Virus record (IMG/VR): IMGVR_UViG_3300030430_002218
Coordinates: 1-34,985 of that record
Length of the DNA stretch: 34,985 bases
Direction: 5' to 3' (one strand)
DNA from: a virus
Both the position numbers and the translations under genes were made by a program. The notes under the pieces are model-generated. The model was not told the origin of the DNA. It saw nothing but the letters and a program-made list of their open reading frames with translations, and did no database searches. Below are positions 2,253 through 14,999 of this stretch, one piece after another (the stretch's first letter is position 1; every line of letters starts with the position of its first letter).

Positions 2253-2905
2253 CTGACCAAGAACCGAAAAACGAACTTGTCGATATGATTATGAACGAGC
2301 GGTTTGTCGCCGCTGAGGAACTCATTCGTGAGTCTCTTCAAACCAAGATCCACGAATCTTTGATTCAAAGAAAAGAAGTTGTAGCCGAGAATCTTGCTGC
2401 GAACATTGAAGAAGAAAAGCAGGACTACGAAAGTTTTTTCAAGTCGGCGATGAAGAAGTTCGGCATTTCATCGCCAGCAGACCTGAAGACCGATGCGAAG
2501 AAGAAGGAATTCTTTGATTACGTTGATAAAAATTTCAAAGGAATGAAAGAGTCATATGTGAACGAGGGTTCGTATGGCATGATGCGTCGGGGCAGAGTGG
2601 AGGGTGAACAATCAAACATCCCAATCCCAAACCCATTCAACCCCGGTGTGCCGACTATTGTACCTAGCATCCCAAACATCCCAAACCCATTCGACACTCC
2701 AATCTATTTCCCTCGCGTACCCGGTAAGAGAGATCCCGATGGTGATGGAAGACCGGGAACACCAGCACCCCCAGTTGAAGGTGAAATGCCACAAATGGAT
2801 CCTCGAATGATGCAACAAATGATGCAACAAATGATGATGATGCAGCAACAAGGTGGCATGGGCGGTATGCCGCCTATGATGAACCCTCAGAAAAAAAAAA
2901 TCTAA
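2249..2905 (+). CDS. gp68-like prohead core protein with proline-rich C-terminal extension
   Basis: A 218-residue protein in two unlike halves. Residues 1-50 (LVDMIMNERFVAAEELIRES, then a run of basic and acidic helix) resemble the small T4-like prohead core proteins of the gp67/gp68 type. From about residue 115 the protein becomes proline-rich: MMRRGRVEGEQ, repeated IPNPF and PNIPNPF, then RDPDGDGRPGTP, then a Met/Gln-rich tail. The DPDGDGRPG piece recurs in the late gene starting at 13489, with 28 identical bases of DNA. The frame ends in three Lys codons encoded by a ten-A run and a TAA. A -1 slip there would join it to the following open frame. Core function is inferred from family resemblance and position; the role of the proline-rich tail is unknown. 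Confidence 0.75.
   Translation: MTDQEPKNELVDMIMNERFVAAEELIRESLQTKIHESLIQRKEVVAENLAANIEEEKQDYESFFKSAMKKFGISSPADLKTDAKKKEFFDYVDKNFKGMKESYVNEGSYGMMRRGRVEGEQSNIPIPNPFNPGVPTIVPSIPNIPNPFDTPIYFPRVPGKRDPDGDGRPGTPAPPVEGEMPQMDPRMMQQMMQQMMMMQQQGGMGGMPPMMNPQKKKI
2732..2759 (+). repeat. 28-base dispersed repeat, copy 1 (DPDGDGRPG module)
   Basis: These 28 bases are identical to 13834-13861, 11 kb away in a different gene, and the bases on either side differ. The first 18 also match 13564-13581. All three copies are read in the frame that gives DPDGDG. Identity at DNA level, not only protein level, suggests recent copying or recombination between the two genes. Confidence 0.9.
2891..2900 (+). other. Ten-A slippery run, candidate -1 frameshift or transcriptional slippage site
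   Basis: In the upstream frame the run reads CAG AAA AAA AAA ATC TAA. A slip of -1 anywhere on the A run moves reading into the frame of the next gene, which is open from 2779 through 3483 with no stop. The 38 codons between 2902 and the first ATG at 3016 contain no ATG, GTG or TTG yet translate to an ordinary-looking protein (VFQTPGQKDIEVGKDSSPF). A homopolymer error in the assembly would give the same picture. Confidence 0.5.
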
Positions 2906-3015
2906 GGGTATTTCAAACACCGGGTCAGAAGGATATTGAAGTAGGAAAGGACTCTTCTCCCTTCAAGTTCAAAGGTTTCAAAAACCAAGACCAACAGTCG
3001 AGACTTCCAGATCCA

Positions 3016-3483
3016 ATGGGACCGATGCAGGGCAACCCACTTGAGCAGCCCGGAAGTGCTGATCCGTATCAATCTGCGTCTACTCAAATCAGAGAACCCG
3101 GATCCCGAGCCGCACCTGAAGACAGGTACGATGAACTCACTGGTGAAATCAAAAAGCGTGCTGACTTTGGACTCGCCACGGGTGCTGTCCCTGTGCAAAG
3201 ACTCAAAGCCGGATCTCTGACATCCACAGATCTTGATCGTGGTTTTGACGAATATGATCTAGAGGACTATGAAGAAGAGTCAATGGCTGGCGGGGACGCA
3301 ATTGGACAGGGTGATCCAAGTCAGACACAACAACCAGAGACAAGAGAAGGCGATGAAGTTTTTCAAGCACATAGATATGATAGTGAAAGACTTCCTTTGT
3401 CGGATCCTTTCACACAGAATCTCAAACCAAAATTTGCGGAATTCGTTTCGCGTAGAAACCAAATTGCAAGAGGGAATTTCTAA
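3016..3483 (+). CDS. Unknown head-region protein; start uncertain, perhaps a frameshift extension of the upstream gene
   Basis: From the first ATG this is 155 residues, but the frame is open back to 2779 and looks coding from about 2902. There is no Shine-Dalgarno before the ATG at 3016 (upstream bases are CTTCCAGATCCA). The protein is hydrophilic and mostly disordered in appearance, acidic in the middle (EYDLEDYEEES), and ends in a possible structured segment, PFTQNLKPKFAEFVSRRNQ. I do not recognise a family. It sits between the core protein and gp21, overlapping the latter by one base. It is probably a minor prohead or head component, made either alone or as the tail of a fusion with the 2249-2905 product. 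Confidence 0.7.
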   Translation: MGPMQGNPLEQPGSADPYQSASTQIREPGSRAAPEDRYDELTGEIKKRADFGLATGAVPVQRLKAGSLTSTDLDRGFDEYDLEDYEEESMAGGDAIGQGDPSQTQQPETREGDEVFQAHRYDSERLPLSDPFTQNLKPKFAEFVSRRNQIARGNF

Positions 3484-4127
3484 TGCTCCTAATCACAGAA
3501 GTAAACGACAACATCAATCTTGTCACTGAAGAAGTCAATGGTGAAAAACAATATCACATCGATGGCATTTTCATGCAGGCAGAACAAAAGAATAGAAACG
3601 GTCGTGTGTACCCAAACAAAACTTTGATGAACGAAGTTCGTAAGTACAACGATGAGTATGTAAAGCCAAGTCGAGCAATGGGCGAGTTGGGACATCCCGA
3701 TGGTCCTCAACTCAATCTTGAAAGAGTTTCCCACTTGATCAAGGAACTTCGAATTGACGGCAATGATGTCTATGGAAAGGCAAAGGTTCTTGACACTCCT
3801 TACGGAAAGATCGTAAAGGATCTTATCAAAGAAGGTGTGAAGATCGGTGTTTCCTCTCGCGGCATGGGTTCGCTCAAGCAAAACAAAGATGGTATCAATG
3901 AAGTGCAAGATGATTTCTCTCTTGCCGCAGTTGATATTGTCGCAGACCCCTCTGCTCCCGATGCCTATGTCCAAGGTATCATGGAAGGCAAAGAGTGGGT
4001 GTGGGAAAACGGTATTCTCACATCAAAGGTTATTGAATCACATAAAGAAGTTATTGAAAAAACGGCTTCAAGAAATCTTGAGGAAGCGAAACTTTACTGC
4101 TTCGCAGATTTCCTGCGAAAATTGTAA
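3483..4127 (+). CDS. gp21: Prohead core protease gp21
   Basis: A 214-residue protein close to the 212 residues of T4 gp21, the serine-type protease inside the prohead that cleaves scaffold, core and capsid proteins after (L/I)-x-E. The sequence shows NRNGRVYP near residue 38, the conserved His in MGELGHPDGP (His71) and the Ser motif GVSSRG (Ser124/125), followed by DIVADPSAPDA. The ATG overlaps the previous stop by one base. Likely substrates in this window are gp22, the gp23 propeptide (LME48|AEIG) and, by inference, proteins with capsid-targeting-like N-termini at 16587 and 16990. The last 40 residues are outside the conserved core. Confidence 0.95.
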   Translation: MLLITEVNDNINLVTEEVNGEKQYHIDGIFMQAEQKNRNGRVYPNKTLMNEVRKYNDEYVKPSRAMGELGHPDGPQLNLERVSHLIKELRIDGNDVYGKAKVLDTPYGKIVKDLIKEGVKIGVSSRGMGSLKQNKDGINEVQDDFSLAAVDIVADPSAPDAYVQGIMEGKEWVWENGILTSKVIESHKEVIEKTASRNLEEAKLYCFADFLRKL

Positions 4128-4162: not shown

Positions 4163-5332
4163 ATGAGTCTTGACAAAGCGTTAGAAACCGCCCGAGAGAT
4201 CCTCGGCGAAGAGTCCTTTACCGATCCACGAAAACTTAGTGCGATGAAGGGTGCTAGAAATGCAACCGAGCCTGCCGCTAAGAAGAGAAGACATTCCTCC
4301 GGTGGAGAAGCCGAAGATGTTTCTGAAGTTCCCGGCATGAAGGGTGGTGCTGTCTCTGCTGATGGCACGACTCCTAAGATTGCCGAACCTGTCGCTGGCA
4401 CTGCAAAAGCAGTCGATGACTTGGATGAATTCGAAGAAGAAGAAGGTGGTGTGACCACCCCTCCTCAAACACCGTTTGATCCTAAAAACGTGGCAGCATC
4501 TATGCCCAAGCCTAAACTCAGTATGCCAGAAGAAATGCAACGAATCAGACGATCCTCACACTATGAATCGGCTGACTTTGGTAATCTCTTCGACGGCGAG
4601 GAACTCTCAGAAGAATTCAAAGCCAAGGCTGCTATTGTGTTTGATGCTGCCGTTGACATGAAGATGGAAGAAGTTCGTTCTGAAATGTACGAAGAGTTCC
4701 AAGAAGCACTTCGTCAACAAGCCGACGCACTTGCTGACAAGATGGACGAATACCTCTCCTACGTTGTCGAAAACTGGATGAAAGAAAATCAAGTTGCAAT
4801 CGACTCTGGTATTCGCTCTGACATCACCGAATCATTCATGATGGGTCTGAAGCAACTCTTCGAAACCCATTACATCAATATGCCTGACGAAGCCTACAAT
4901 GTTGTCGAAGGTTTGAATCACAAAGTCTACGAACTCTCCGCTAGACTTGATGAGGCATACAAGCAAAATGTTCAACTCAAGGCACAGGGAACTAAGGCAT
5001 CTGCCGAAGCCGTCTACGAGTCCTATACAAAGGATTTGACTCAGACGGAAGAGCATCGCTTTAGAAACCTCGCTGAAAAGATTGACTTTGATACTCCTGA
5101 AGAATTCGCACACAAGTTGAGCATTCTGAAGGAAAACTTCTTTACACAATCCGTCGCTGACGGTTCCAGCGACTCTTACGTTGCCCAAAAAACTCCTCTT
5201 GTTGAGGAATTTTCCATGACCGAAGAAGAAGCAATTGAGGAAACTCAACCAGAACTTACTCGCTCGATGGAGGCTTACACTTCCGCTCTTACTCGATCCG
5301 CCAAGATTGAGAAGAATCGAACCACTTCCTAA
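4163..5332 (+). CDS. gp22: Prohead scaffold protein gp22
   Basis: A 389-residue scaffold protein forming the core around which the prohead assembles before gp21 digests it. The diagnostic block is around residues 135-180 (NLFDGEELSEEFKAKAAIVF and the acidic helix after it). This is followed by long acidic helices and a C-terminal acidic segment typical of T4-like gp22. It is longer than T4 gp22 (269 residues). The extra N-terminal 110 residues are low-complexity with KKRRHSSGG, DDLDEFEEEE and TPPQTPFDPK. Possible (L/I)-x-E cleavage points such as LSE are present. It follows its own late promoter and AGGAG, and directly precedes gp23. Confidence 0.92.
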   Translation: MSLDKALETAREILGEESFTDPRKLSAMKGARNATEPAAKKRRHSSGGEAEDVSEVPGMKGGAVSADGTTPKIAEPVAGTAKAVDDLDEFEEEEGGVTTPPQTPFDPKNVAASMPKPKLSMPEEMQRIRRSSHYESADFGNLFDGEELSEEFKAKAAIVFDAAVDMKMEEVRSEMYEEFQEALRQQADALADKMDEYLSYVVENWMKENQVAIDSGIRSDITESFMMGLKQLFETHYINMPDEAYNVVEGLNHKVYELSARLDEAYKQNVQLKAQGTKASAEAVYESYTKDLTQTEEHRFRNLAEKIDFDTPEEFAHKLSILKENFFTQSVADGSSDSYVAQKTPLVEEFSMTEEEAIEETQPELTRSMEAYTSALTRSAKIEKNRTTS

Positions 5333-5360: not shown

Positions 5361-6812
5361 ATGTCTGACTCACTTTTAGTCGAAGGCCTGCGTGAAAAGT
5401 GGCAACCCGTCATCGAACACAGCGACCTTCCCGAAATCAAGGATGATTATCGCAAGAATGTTACTGCAATCATCCTCGAAAACCAAGAGAAGGCTCTTAT
5501 GGAAGCCGAAATTGGTAACCACTCCGGGGTTGACTCCATCTACGGCGATACCTCCGGTGCTTTCAACAGCGTTGCAGGTTTCAACCCTGTTCTCATCTCT
5601 CTCGTTCGTCGATCCATGCCTAACTTGATCGCTTATGACATCTGTGGTGTCCAGCCTATGTCTGGTCCTACGGGTCTGATCTTTGCGATGAAGTCTAAGT
5701 TGGGTGGTCAAGGCTCTGCTGAAGCCCTCTTTGACGAAGCACCTACTGGATTCTCCCGCAACACGGGTCAGGCTGGCACTGCTGATGGTGTTGGTTTCCC
5801 TGTTTCTGGCGGAACTGGTGATCCTTTGGGTATCGTCGCTGGTGCTACAGTCGGTGCTATGACTGGTGGTTCCTTCGGTTCTGGTTTCACTGGTCACACC
5901 TCTGAAGGTATTGATGTTCGAGAGTCCGGTGGTGCTACTACTTCGTTCTTCGAAGAAAAGGATCGTACCTTTAGTGAGATGTCATTCTCGATCGACCGTC
6001 AATCCGTGGTTGCTAGAACCCGTGCATTGAAGGCTGAGTACACCTCCGAACTCGCTCAGGATCTCAAGGCTGTTCACGGTCTGGATGCTGAAACTGAATT
6101 GGCAAACATTCTCTCGGCTGAAATTCTTGCTGAAATCAACCGTGAAGTTGTTCGTTCAATCTACAGCAACGCGAAACTCGGTTGTCAACAAGCCGACCTG
6201 CGATTCAAGTCATCCGGTGTCTCCGCGATGGGTGTTCTCGGCGGCGGCGGTATCTATGATGTCGAGTCTGACTCCGATGGTCGTTGGAGTGCTGAAAAGT
6301 TCCGTGGCTTGATGTTCCAAATCGAACGTGAAGCAAACGTCATCGCTAAGGAAACTCGTCGTGGTAAGGGTAACTTTATCGTCACGACTTCCGATGTCGC
6401 CTCGGCACTTGCCATGTCTGGTTTCTTGAACCTGACCCCAACTCCTAACATCAACCTCGATGTTGATGACACTGGTAACACCTTTGCTGGTACTCTGAAC
6501 GGTAAGATCAAGGTCTACATTGATCCTTACTCCAACTCTGGCAAGGACTATGTGTGTGTTGGTTATAGAGGAACCAGCCCATACGATGCTGGTATGTTCT
6601 ACTGCCCATACGTTCCGTTGCAAATGGTTCGTGCGGTTGGTGAAAGCGACTTCCAGCCCAGAATTGGTTTCAAGACTCGATACGGTCTTGTCAACAACCC
6701 ATTCGTGTCGGACGGAACTGACCGTTCCGATCCTCACGGTGCTGCCGCAGAAGGTAGAAACCAATACTATAGAATCTTCAGAGTTCTCAATCTCCACGGT
6801 GCGAGAGTCTAA
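5361..6812 (+). CDS. gp23: Major capsid protein gp23
   Basis: A 483-residue major head protein of the T4 HK97-fold family. The region LVRRSMPNLIAYDICGVQPM near residue 85 is the hallmark of the family, and SDVASALAMSGFL and the C-terminal FKTRYGLVNNPF also fit. The N-terminal propeptide ends at LME48|AEIG, matching the T4 gp21 cleavage site, so the mature protein should start at Ala49. The ATG follows AAAGGAAAAG. A strong hairpin terminator lies directly after the stop, as expected for a very highly expressed late gene. No separate vertex protein gp24 is seen in this window. Confidence 0.97.
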   Translation: MSDSLLVEGLREKWQPVIEHSDLPEIKDDYRKNVTAIILENQEKALMEAEIGNHSGVDSIYGDTSGAFNSVAGFNPVLISLVRRSMPNLIAYDICGVQPMSGPTGLIFAMKSKLGGQGSAEALFDEAPTGFSRNTGQAGTADGVGFPVSGGTGDPLGIVAGATVGAMTGGSFGSGFTGHTSEGIDVRESGGATTSFFEEKDRTFSEMSFSIDRQSVVARTRALKAEYTSELAQDLKAVHGLDAETELANILSAEILAEINREVVRSIYSNAKLGCQQADLRFKSSGVSAMGVLGGGGIYDVESDSDGRWSAEKFRGLMFQIEREANVIAKETRRGKGNFIVTTSDVASALAMSGFLNLTPTPNINLDVDDTGNTFAGTLNGKIKVYIDPYSNSGKDYVCVGYRGTSPYDAGMFYCPYVPLQMVRAVGESDFQPRIGFKTRYGLVNNPFVSDGTDRSDPHGAAAEGRNQYYRIFRVLNLHGARV

Positions 6813-10154: not shown

Positions 10155-10685
10155 ATGGCAGGGGAACACTACATTGACAACAAAAAGTTTTTTGACGAAA
10201 TCGTTTCGTGGAAACGAGATGTCAAAGTAGCAGAAGAGGCAGGAGATCTCACACCACAGATCACTGAGTACATCGGTGAATGTTTTATTTTGATCGCCGA
10301 GCGTCTTTCGACCCGACCAAACTTTATCAACTATTCCTTTCGTGATGAGATGGTTGGTGATGCCATTGAAAATTGTTTGATTGCTGCGAAAAACTTTGAT
10401 CCAGAAAAGTCGAGCAATCCGTTTTCATACTTTACACAGATCACATACTTTGCTTTTCTTCGTCGAATCCAAAGAGAAAAAAAGCAAGACACGATCAAAT
10501 ACAAACTTATGGAATCGGCAGATGCGAAGGGGGAACTCGCAGCCATGCTAGATCCAGAGGGAAGTCAAAAAGATCCATACGCAGCACATTTGAAGTTGAC
10601 TGAAAATGACATCGTGAACATAGAACCAAAAAAGAAAAGAAAGAAAAGAGCCAAAGGCTCCACTGGTGACGGAGAGTTATTTTGA
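10155..10685 (+). CDS. gp55: Late sigma factor gp55
   Basis: A 176-residue protein matching T4 gp55 (185 residues), the minimal sigma factor that binds host RNA polymerase core and recognises the TATAAATA-type late promoter. Recognisable are the N-terminal helix, NYSFRDEMVGDAIENCLIAA and FDPEKSSNPFSYFTQITYFA near residue 80, the equivalent of sigma region 2, and the basic FLRRIQREKKQ. The C-terminus is a basic linker (KKKRKKRAKG) ending in GELF. In T4 the end of gp55 binds the gp45 sliding clamp, so this short hydrophobic end may do the same (inference). Its probable targets here are the CTAAATA/ATAAATA motifs. Confidence 0.95.
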   Translation: MAGEHYIDNKKFFDEIVSWKRDVKVAEEAGDLTPQITEYIGECFILIAERLSTRPNFINYSFRDEMVGDAIENCLIAAKNFDPEKSSNPFSYFTQITYFAFLRRIQREKKQDTIKYKLMESADAKGELAAMLDPEGSQKDPYAAHLKLTENDIVNIEPKKKRKKRAKGSTGDGELF

Positions 10686-13488: not shown

Positions 13489-14205
13489 ATGAGACTCAAT
13501 CCAAGACGAAATCGTAGTTACATTTCAGAGGAAGGCCCCGGAACATTTCCTCCAACGTGGTGGGATCCCGATGGTGATGGACAACCCGGACCAATTACTA
13601 TTCCCAACATTTTCGATCCAGAGAATCCAGTCAAAATCCCCAATCTACCGTATCCAGTAGATCCAATTGAAATTCCAAACATCTTTGATGATGAAAATCC
13701 AATACGACTTCCCCGACCACTCATACCGGGGGATCCGACAATTTTCCCAACTCAACCAATTTTCAAAAATCCAATACAAATTCCAAATCCATTCAAAGAA
13801 CCCATCTATTTCCCCGGTGGTATTGAACCCATTGATCCCGATGGTGATGGAAGACCGGGAAAAGTAGGTAGAGACTATGAGCCTTGGTGGTGGGACGATC
13901 CAATCGTACACCCAAATCCGGGTCCGCCTCATTATCCAGCAGGCGCACCTTGGCCTCCTCCATGGCCAGATCCACTTGGTGATCCCCCAGACTGGTGGCC
14001 TTCAGGTTGGAACTGGCCTCCAGATTTGCCAAACACATATCCTCCCGGTCATCCAGACAATCCGGATGAAAATCCGCAACCCGAATTTCCGGAACCTGAA
14101 CCAGATTATGGTGAACCTCCGGACAGATATCCAAGTAGACGTAGGCGACCTTCGGAATTCCCACCCCCTTCAATTGATATGCCGGATCAAGGAGGAGTAC
14201 AATAA
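13489..14205 (+). CDS. Proline- and tryptophan-rich protein with DPDGDG motifs (unknown)
   Basis: A 238-residue protein of no recognised family. After a basic N-terminus (MRLNPRRNRSYISE) it is dominated by Pro, Asp, Asn, Trp and Ile. DPDGDGQPG (near 26) and DPDGDGRPG (near 117) frame a run of repeats such as IPNIFD, ENPVKIPN and IPNPF. The second half is Trp/Pro-rich (YEPWWWDDP, PPDWWPSGWNWPPD) and ends with a basic SRRRR patch. The N-terminal YISE14 fits the gp21 (L/I)-x-E cleavage rule, and MRLN plus a Ser-Glu at position 14 recurs in the gene at 16216. The protein should be largely extended or disordered. It begins the late cluster and is coupled by one base to the next, related gene. Confidence 0.8.
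   Translation: MRLNPRRNRSYISEEGPGTFPPTWWDPDGDGQPGPITIPNIFDPENPVKIPNLPYPVDPIEIPNIFDDENPIRLPRPLIPGDPTIFPTQPIFKNPIQIPNPFKEPIYFPGGIEPIDPDGDGRPGKVGRDYEPWWWDDPIVHPNPGPPHYPAGAPWPPPWPDPLGDPPDWWPSGWNWPPDLPNTYPPGHPDNPDENPQPEFPEPEPDYGEPPDRYPSRRRRPSEFPPPSIDMPDQGGVQ
13564..13581 (+). repeat. 18-base partial copy of the DPDGDG repeat
   Basis: Identical to the first 18 bases of the 28-base repeat at 2732 and 13834, in the same reading frame, inside the first proline-rich gene. Confidence 0.85.
13834..13861 (+). repeat. 28-base dispersed repeat, copy 2 (DPDGDGRPG module)
   Basis: Exact match to 2732-2759 in the prohead core gene. Upstream of both copies there is also similar coding (PNPF, IYFP), so the protein-level similarity is longer than the DNA identity. 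Confidence 0.9.
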
Positions 14206-14999
14206 TGTACGGAATAGAAGAAGAACGTCCAGAGGGTCCAGTTCGACCATCTCCTGTGCATCCGTGGTTCACTCCGCAGCCATACAAACCACCACCGGAG
14301 CCTGATATCACTCCGGGTGTACCGTTCGAGGTTGATCCAGATTTTCCCGGTCTACCCGATCCCTTTGATCCCACACCATTTTTTACACCTCTAGATGTGC
14401 CTCTGGATCCCGGCATTTACAAACCATTTGGTCCGGGTGGTCCGGGTGTTCCTATGGACCCAAGACTCATACCATTTATGCCGAAAAGCCCGTTCCCATT
14501 TAGAATCCCAAAATCTATTCCGATAGACCCAAATAACCCATTTGATATTCCGGGCCCGAGTGAGACAGAGCCACCAGACTGGTGGCCAGATGATATTCCT
14601 TGGCCAGATAATAATCCTTTGGAGATTCCTATCGACATTCCCAATTTTCCTTGGGATGATCCAGACGAAAATCCCTATGCTCCCTTCAATCCGTTTGATC
14701 CTGAGCATGTAGATCCGTTAGGTGATCACGATGATGATGGCAGACCAAATTATCTTGACCCACAGAATCCATATTACTTTCCTCCCGGCGATCCAGATCC
14801 ACCAGAAGAGCCGGAAGACCCGGAACCTGCTCAAATGCCGGTGCGAGGTGGTCAACTTGATAGATTAGGAGCCACACCAAATCAACCTAAATTGACTTCT
14901 GATTTTTCTGTGCCTAATGTTGAAGGTGAACTTGCAAAAAGAGCAGCCCAAGCCATGTCTAGACAAAACAAAAATGGAATGATGCGTGGAGGGTATTGA
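14205..14999 (+). CDS. Second proline-rich protein of the cluster (unknown)
   Basis: A 264-residue protein related in style to its neighbour: EPPDWWPDDIPWPDNN matches the PPDWWP segment there, DPDENPYAPFNPF resembles its DENP units, and HDDDGRPN is a worn form of DPDGDGRPG. About the first 210 residues are proline-rich with short repeats (DPFDPTPFF, GPGGPGVPMDP). The last 40 residues differ (VEGELAKRAAQAMSRQNKNG) and may form a helix. GGAGGAG precedes the ATG, which overlaps the previous stop by one base; its own stop overlaps the next ATG. No enzyme motif is visible. A structural or packaged role is inferred from the late promoter and neighbours. Confidence 0.8.
   Translation: MYGIEEERPEGPVRPSPVHPWFTPQPYKPPPEPDITPGVPFEVDPDFPGLPDPFDPTPFFTPLDVPLDPGIYKPFGPGGPGVPMDPRLIPFMPKSPFPFRIPKSIPIDPNNPFDIPGPSETEPPDWWPDDIPWPDNNPLEIPIDIPNFPWDDPDENPYAPFNPFDPEHVDPLGDHDDDGRPNYLDPQNPYYFPPGDPDPPEEPEDPEPAQMPVRGGQLDRLGATPNQPKLTSDFSVPNVEGELAKRAAQAMSRQNKNGMMRGGY

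Follow-up and report, generated by a model that had tools for sequence, protein, structure and literature searches.

A ten-adenine run probably recodes a prohead-core-position gene in a marine T4-like phage lineage

Introduction

T4 head assembly is the textbook case of scaffold-core proteins guiding the size and shape of a head. In the head proteins of Lactobacillus phage A2 and of T7 (10A/10B), the longer form carries its added residues at the C-terminus. Both the A2 major head protein and the product of T7 gene 10A/10B are made in a short and a C-terminally extended version by a shift near the gene end (PMC5009743), and lambda gpG/gpGT and related tail assembly chaperones also obtain two lengths from one morphogenetic gene, by a low-efficiency -1 shift (PMC5009743). 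The tail chaperone pair of T4-like phages is reportedly made without frameshifting, as reference 44 is represented in PMC10885494. The T4 core proteins gp22, gp67 and gp68 are digested by gp21, and frameshifting is absent from the T4 head review (PMC9958956). The alpha-carboxysome protein CsoS2, a disordered, repeat-rich scaffold, has two forms made by a -1 frameshift that depends on a 3' stem-loop (PMC5009743).

Polymerases can also change the frame. Runs of at least nine A's cause bacterial RNA polymerase slippage (PMC1088944), slippage on nine A's is known (PMC5009743) and purposeful transcriptional slippage is recognized, by a published criterion, from 9A/9T runs whose length is conserved across homologues (PMC1088944). 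On the A9-type runs of bacterial IS elements, Shigella type III genes and dnaX, the homopolymer is at least nine bases long and of conserved length, and the other frame is reached without a downstream ribosomal stimulator (PMC1088944, PMC5009743).

The locus described here shares these last features, having a conserved run of ten A's (A10) and no stimulator that we could find. It differs from A2 and T7, where major shell proteins and other slippery motifs are involved, because its gene holds a core position in a T4-like operon; lambda gpG/gpGT likewise differs in gene and structure, and CsoS2, an unrelated protein, is a functional analogy only. Like T4 gp67/gp68, the recoded candidate lies between gp20 and gp21, but no sequence match to them was found. 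Recoding of phage structural genes is already known; in the literature that we searched, what is new is its place in a prohead-core-position gene, as we found there no earlier report of a recoded prohead core gene and no description of programmed transcriptional slippage in a tailed-phage head gene. If true, T4-type heads would have a new means of controlling stoichiometry: a core protein of two lengths whose proportions a homopolymer fixes.

Results and Discussion

The head operon and its core-position gene

The window, meaning the whole stretch of DNA that was analysed, spans the 34,985 bases of a virus record, and its first genes form a T4-type head operon. The nearest named relatives of its gp21 are found in marine T4-like phages of Synechococcus, Prochlorococcus and Pelagibacter (57-59% identity). 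The genes that concern us are:

16-1539, + strand: gp20 portal protein
1539-2252: ORF between gp20 and the 0-frame gene
2249-2905, + strand: the 0-frame gene, 218 codons, a prohead-core candidate in the gp68 position between gp20 and gp21, its start preceded by an SD-like AGGGA
3483-4127, + strand: gp21 prohead protease (Peptidase_S77), with SD AGAGGG and a start that overlaps the end of the extension (TAATG)
4163-5332, + strand: gp22 head scaffolding protein
5361-6812, + strand: gp23 major head protein, followed by tail tube and UvsY/UvsW
10155-10685: gp55-like late sigma factor

The T4 gene order is 20-67-68-21-22-23, and the order around the 0-frame gene (20-x-x-21-22-23) fits the gp68 position. 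The first-pass annotation had called this gene gp68-like, which its place in the operon supports and its sequence does not: no Pfam family gave a match near the cut-off, and its one weak match is to PHROG 28651 (function unknown, E = 3.4e-4). We treat it as a gp68-type prohead core protein by position only. Its product has a conserved N-terminal part of about 100 aa, a hypervariable proline-rich linker, a Met/Gln-rich tail and a KKKI-stop end, encoded by CAG AAA AAA AAA ATC TAA.

The junction and its relatives

Re-reading the window confirmed that a ten-A run closes the 0-frame gene while the -1 frame continues beyond it. The junction contains:

2891-2900, + strand: A10, the proposed slip site, with an in-phase heptamer A_AAA_AAA at 2893-2899
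2903-2905, + strand: 0-frame stop, TAA (TGA in contig L001)
2899-3483, + strand: -1 frame extension, 194 codons and a stop, predicted to be largely disordered with a C-terminal helix
2935-2937, + strand: ATT, a near-cognate start with an SD-like AGAAGG only about 2 nt upstream
3016-3018, + strand: first ATG of the -1 frame, without a good SD; a conserved internal Met codon (DPMGP) in L001, L002 and L003

Across the run, the -1 frame reads AAA AAA AAA AAT CTA AGG and stays open to its stop at 3481-3483. It had been described as open from 2779, but a TGA occupies 2782-2784 and the frame is therefore open from 2785. Nine A's, which were said to join the two frames, would not do so; continuity needs 11 (or 8).

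A junction search of 2.9 million viral contigs (IMG/VR) yielded three junction contigs beyond the window: L001 (81% identity to the window across the full extension), L003 (98% over 53 residues) and L004 (94% over 32 residues). The comparison rests on four junctions from one lineage, read from consensus assemblies, with L003 and L004 close to the window. The upstream part of L003 is L005, on the same contig, and L006 is probably the upstream part of L001, because the two share a sample and their ends overlap. The remainder of the extension lies on L002; this contig and L004 share the source metagenome 3300030108 and so may be two halves of a single phage.

Selection on the -1 frame and its possible starts

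Between the window and L001, the -1 frame from 2899 to 3015, upstream of its first ATG, differs by 17 substitutions (3, 3 and 11 by codon position) that cause 6 residue changes and no stop, compared to 11.6 changes expected when the same substitutions are placed randomly (P = 0.0002); a stop arises in 74% of such trials. The comparison of L001 with L003 gives 5 residue changes versus 13.4 expected (P < 0.0001). The other two frames contain stops and show no saving (12 changes versus 10.9 and 11.4 expected). Within the extension, a Pro-rich stretch of 63 residues is inserted in frame in L002, as coding sequence would show. These substitution patterns show protein-level selection on the -1 frame ahead of ATG3016, while the 0-frame stop is kept. 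The signal is weak for 2899-2934, where the 12 codons before ATT2935 differ between L001 and L003 by 4 substitutions and 1 residue change (P = 0.035), a result in the same direction but weak alone. Synonymous-site suppression 3' of the slip site was considered and dropped, because its longest run of 13 identical codons had a permutation P of 0.10 and similar runs occur in gp21.

The extension is acidic. Its predicted fold, from a shallow alignment, is mostly of low confidence (pLDDT 52, pTM 0.13), and the sole helix is C-terminal (176-190); with that low confidence, the model suggests an extension that is mostly disordered save for this helix.

The ATG at 3016 had been noted as the first of its frame and as lacking a Shine-Dalgarno sequence, and both points are borne out. 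Its anti-SD pairing energy (-3.0 kcal/mol) is near the random background mean (-2.5 kcal/mol), unlike those of most window genes (between -5 and -11 kcal/mol), with gp21, gp22, gp23 and most others having a useful SD. Because selection acts upstream of ATG3016 and because it has no useful SD, a start at 3016 cannot explain the data. The further claim that no alternative start precedes it holds for ATG, GTG and TTG, but overlooks the near-cognate ATT at 2935; an AUU start there could only just explain the data.

It is unlikely, then, though the best placed of the alternatives, that the extension is a separate protein started at AUU 2935 or AUG 3016 and coupled to upstream termination. All four sequences keep the ATT, which AGAAGG precedes, and the ATG is conserved as well. 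Yet the frame is selected well upstream of 3016, AGAAGG sits only about 2 nt from the ATT, the codons before the ATT also tend towards synonymous change and neither start explains the constant length of the A run. Since its coding sequence lacks a usual start codon, the extension is apparently made by a slip, and gene callers will split such genes, with a false start at 3016.

Constancy of the A run

The A10 is the sole single-base run of at least nine in the window. In a dinucleotide-shuffled window 1.1 such A10 runs are expected, and 56 of 100 shuffles contain one or more, so the run by itself is unremarkable. Chance does not account for the run being kept at exactly this length in three other phage populations alongside a -1 frame under selection. 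Whether homologues keep the run had been proposed as a check, and they do: the A10 is identical in the window, L001, L003 and L004, though its flanks vary (CAG/CCG, TAA/TGA). TCTRAGGG directly follows the A10 in all three further junctions, and thus each retains a 0-frame stop: TGA in L001, TAA in L003 and L004. Between the window and L001, gp21 retains 97% of its residues but only 66% of its third bases, which we count in favour of recoding; AAA and AAG switch at 5 of its 17 conserved Lys codons, and window genes use AAA and AAG in a 285:287 ratio.

Two candidates from these searches were set aside. L170-L175 have the same AAAAAAAAAATCTRAGGG string and encode no relatives of these genes, and in L048 a continuous ORF reads straight through the A10.

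Replication slippage is also likely on long A runs, as discussed in PMC1088944, and gains or losses of A's in the DNA could leave each genome with either the short or the fused form. We regard such phase variation as very improbable, because all four consensus sequences have exactly A10, with no A11 or A8, and the contigs carrying the downstream motif show no junction of another run length. Homopolymers are common sites of indel errors, but a sequencing or assembly error that hides truly continuous frames (A11 or A8) is hardly credible when the window agrees on A10 with contigs of three metagenome records, and when the 0-frame stop is conserved while its codon has changed from TAA to TGA.

Two predicted forms by recoding at A10

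The A10, the kept stop and the selection on the -1 frame together predict two products. The standard reading would stop two codons past the run and give a 218 aa, 25 kDa protein, while a fraction of readings would step one base back and translate 194 more codons into a 411 aa, 46 kDa protein. From comparative sequence evidence we therefore think it probable that recoding at A10 lets the gene specify a prohead-core protein with two alternative C-termini, and we infer that the slip occurs in cells. The first-pass annotation had proposed a slip on the A run that fuses the two frames. The fusion is upheld by the A10, the kept stop and the selected -1 frame in four populations. The set ratio of the two forms that it also proposed is so far a conjecture, and on so long an A run the slipping machine may be RNA polymerase rather than the ribosome.

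Two mechanisms would produce the same fusion, KKK-NLR. In the transcriptional route, the host RNA polymerase would slip on the A10 and add one A; the run has at least nine A/T bases and a conserved length. With a gp55-like late sigma factor among its genes, the phage probably has its head operon transcribed by the host polymerase. In the ribosomal route, -1 slippage would take place on A_AAA_AAA, an in-phase heptamer of the X_XXY_YYZ type.

Ribosomal stimulators are common, though not obligatory, and none was found here. The downstream RNA folds no better than its shuffles (z = -0.25), compensatory changes are absent from its pairing (0 of 45 consensus pairs, 4 sequences) and TATGATGAACCCTCAG, just 5' of the run, contains no SD-like stretch that could act as an upstream stimulator. 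For a larger fold that takes in the A run (z = -2.1), the alignment likewise offers no compensatory pair, and L001 disrupts the pairing at several positions. In E. coli cell-free translation, little sliding was seen on A9 or A10 compared with A11 (PMC4363877), which argues against the ribosomal version. Transcriptional slippage is slightly preferred for these two reasons, the missing conserved RNA stimulator and the limited sliding of E. coli ribosomes on A10, and we give it about an even chance. Ribosomal -1 slippage is kept as a possible but less probable route, because low-level, unstimulated shifts matter in tailed phages (PMC5009743).

The longer form would be a minor, mostly disordered scaffold chain in the core, later digested by gp21. 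We tentatively propose, at somewhat less than an even chance, that in this marine T4-like lineage conserved A10 slippage by the host RNA polymerase makes a long, disordered core form in a ratio fixed by run length, and that the added part was acquired within the lineage as an extra scaffold module.

Origin of the extension

Homologues of the extension outside the lineage are absent from 50,697 phage records, a profile search of IMG/VR added none, and none was present in genome contigs with the junction motif. Five related contigs (L007, L008, L009, L011 and L084) have gp21 proteins that are 83-88% identical and 0-frame genes with the same N-terminal domain, and these 0-frame genes lack the extension, stopping either at gp21 or shortly ahead of it; L007 has a Met-rich end resembling that of the 0-frame gene. 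A continuous fused gene, the other outcome that the first-pass annotation wished to see checked, was not found in these relatives. As related phages lack it, the extension was seemingly added in a single lineage, where a slip and not a start codon of its own gives access to it.

In L001, a 66-aa ORF with GGAAAAAAA in front (1256-1456) lies between the extension and gp21. The window has no such ORF; there, extension and gp21 start overlap.

A second set of marine T4-like contigs (L025, L026 and L027) also has an A10, at 2277-2290 (GAG GAA AAA AAA AAG TAA). There, a 646-aa ORF stops at the A10 and the -1 frame enters DUF5824 directly (E = 8.9e-22, profile from position 36), while in relatives such as L024, L028 and L063 DUF5824 apparently lies within long continuous ORFs. 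The site is a candidate for a second slip site or a real indel.

The hypervariable linker

The linker of the 0-frame gene was compared over window 2609-2785, L001 1-540, L002 280-470 and L005 5310-5509. In the window it carries:

2609-2785, + strand: 59-residue Pro-rich insertion in the 0-frame gene; in L004, RVEGE is joined directly to MPQMDP

Repeated GGRPGPKITRDP units occur in the linkers of L001 and L007, and L002 has a similar insertion in its -1 frame part. The variation resembles an in-frame exchange of short Pro-rich cassettes. Within the window's Pro-rich insertion, a 28-bp repeat at 2732-2759 recurs at 13834-13861. The two adjacent window ORFs at 13489-14205 and 14205-14999 are Pro/Trp/Asp-rich, with good SDs and no PHROG match, and the first of them has in common with the head-core linker this identical 28-bp stretch (DPDGDGRPG) and an IPNPF..PIYFP pattern.
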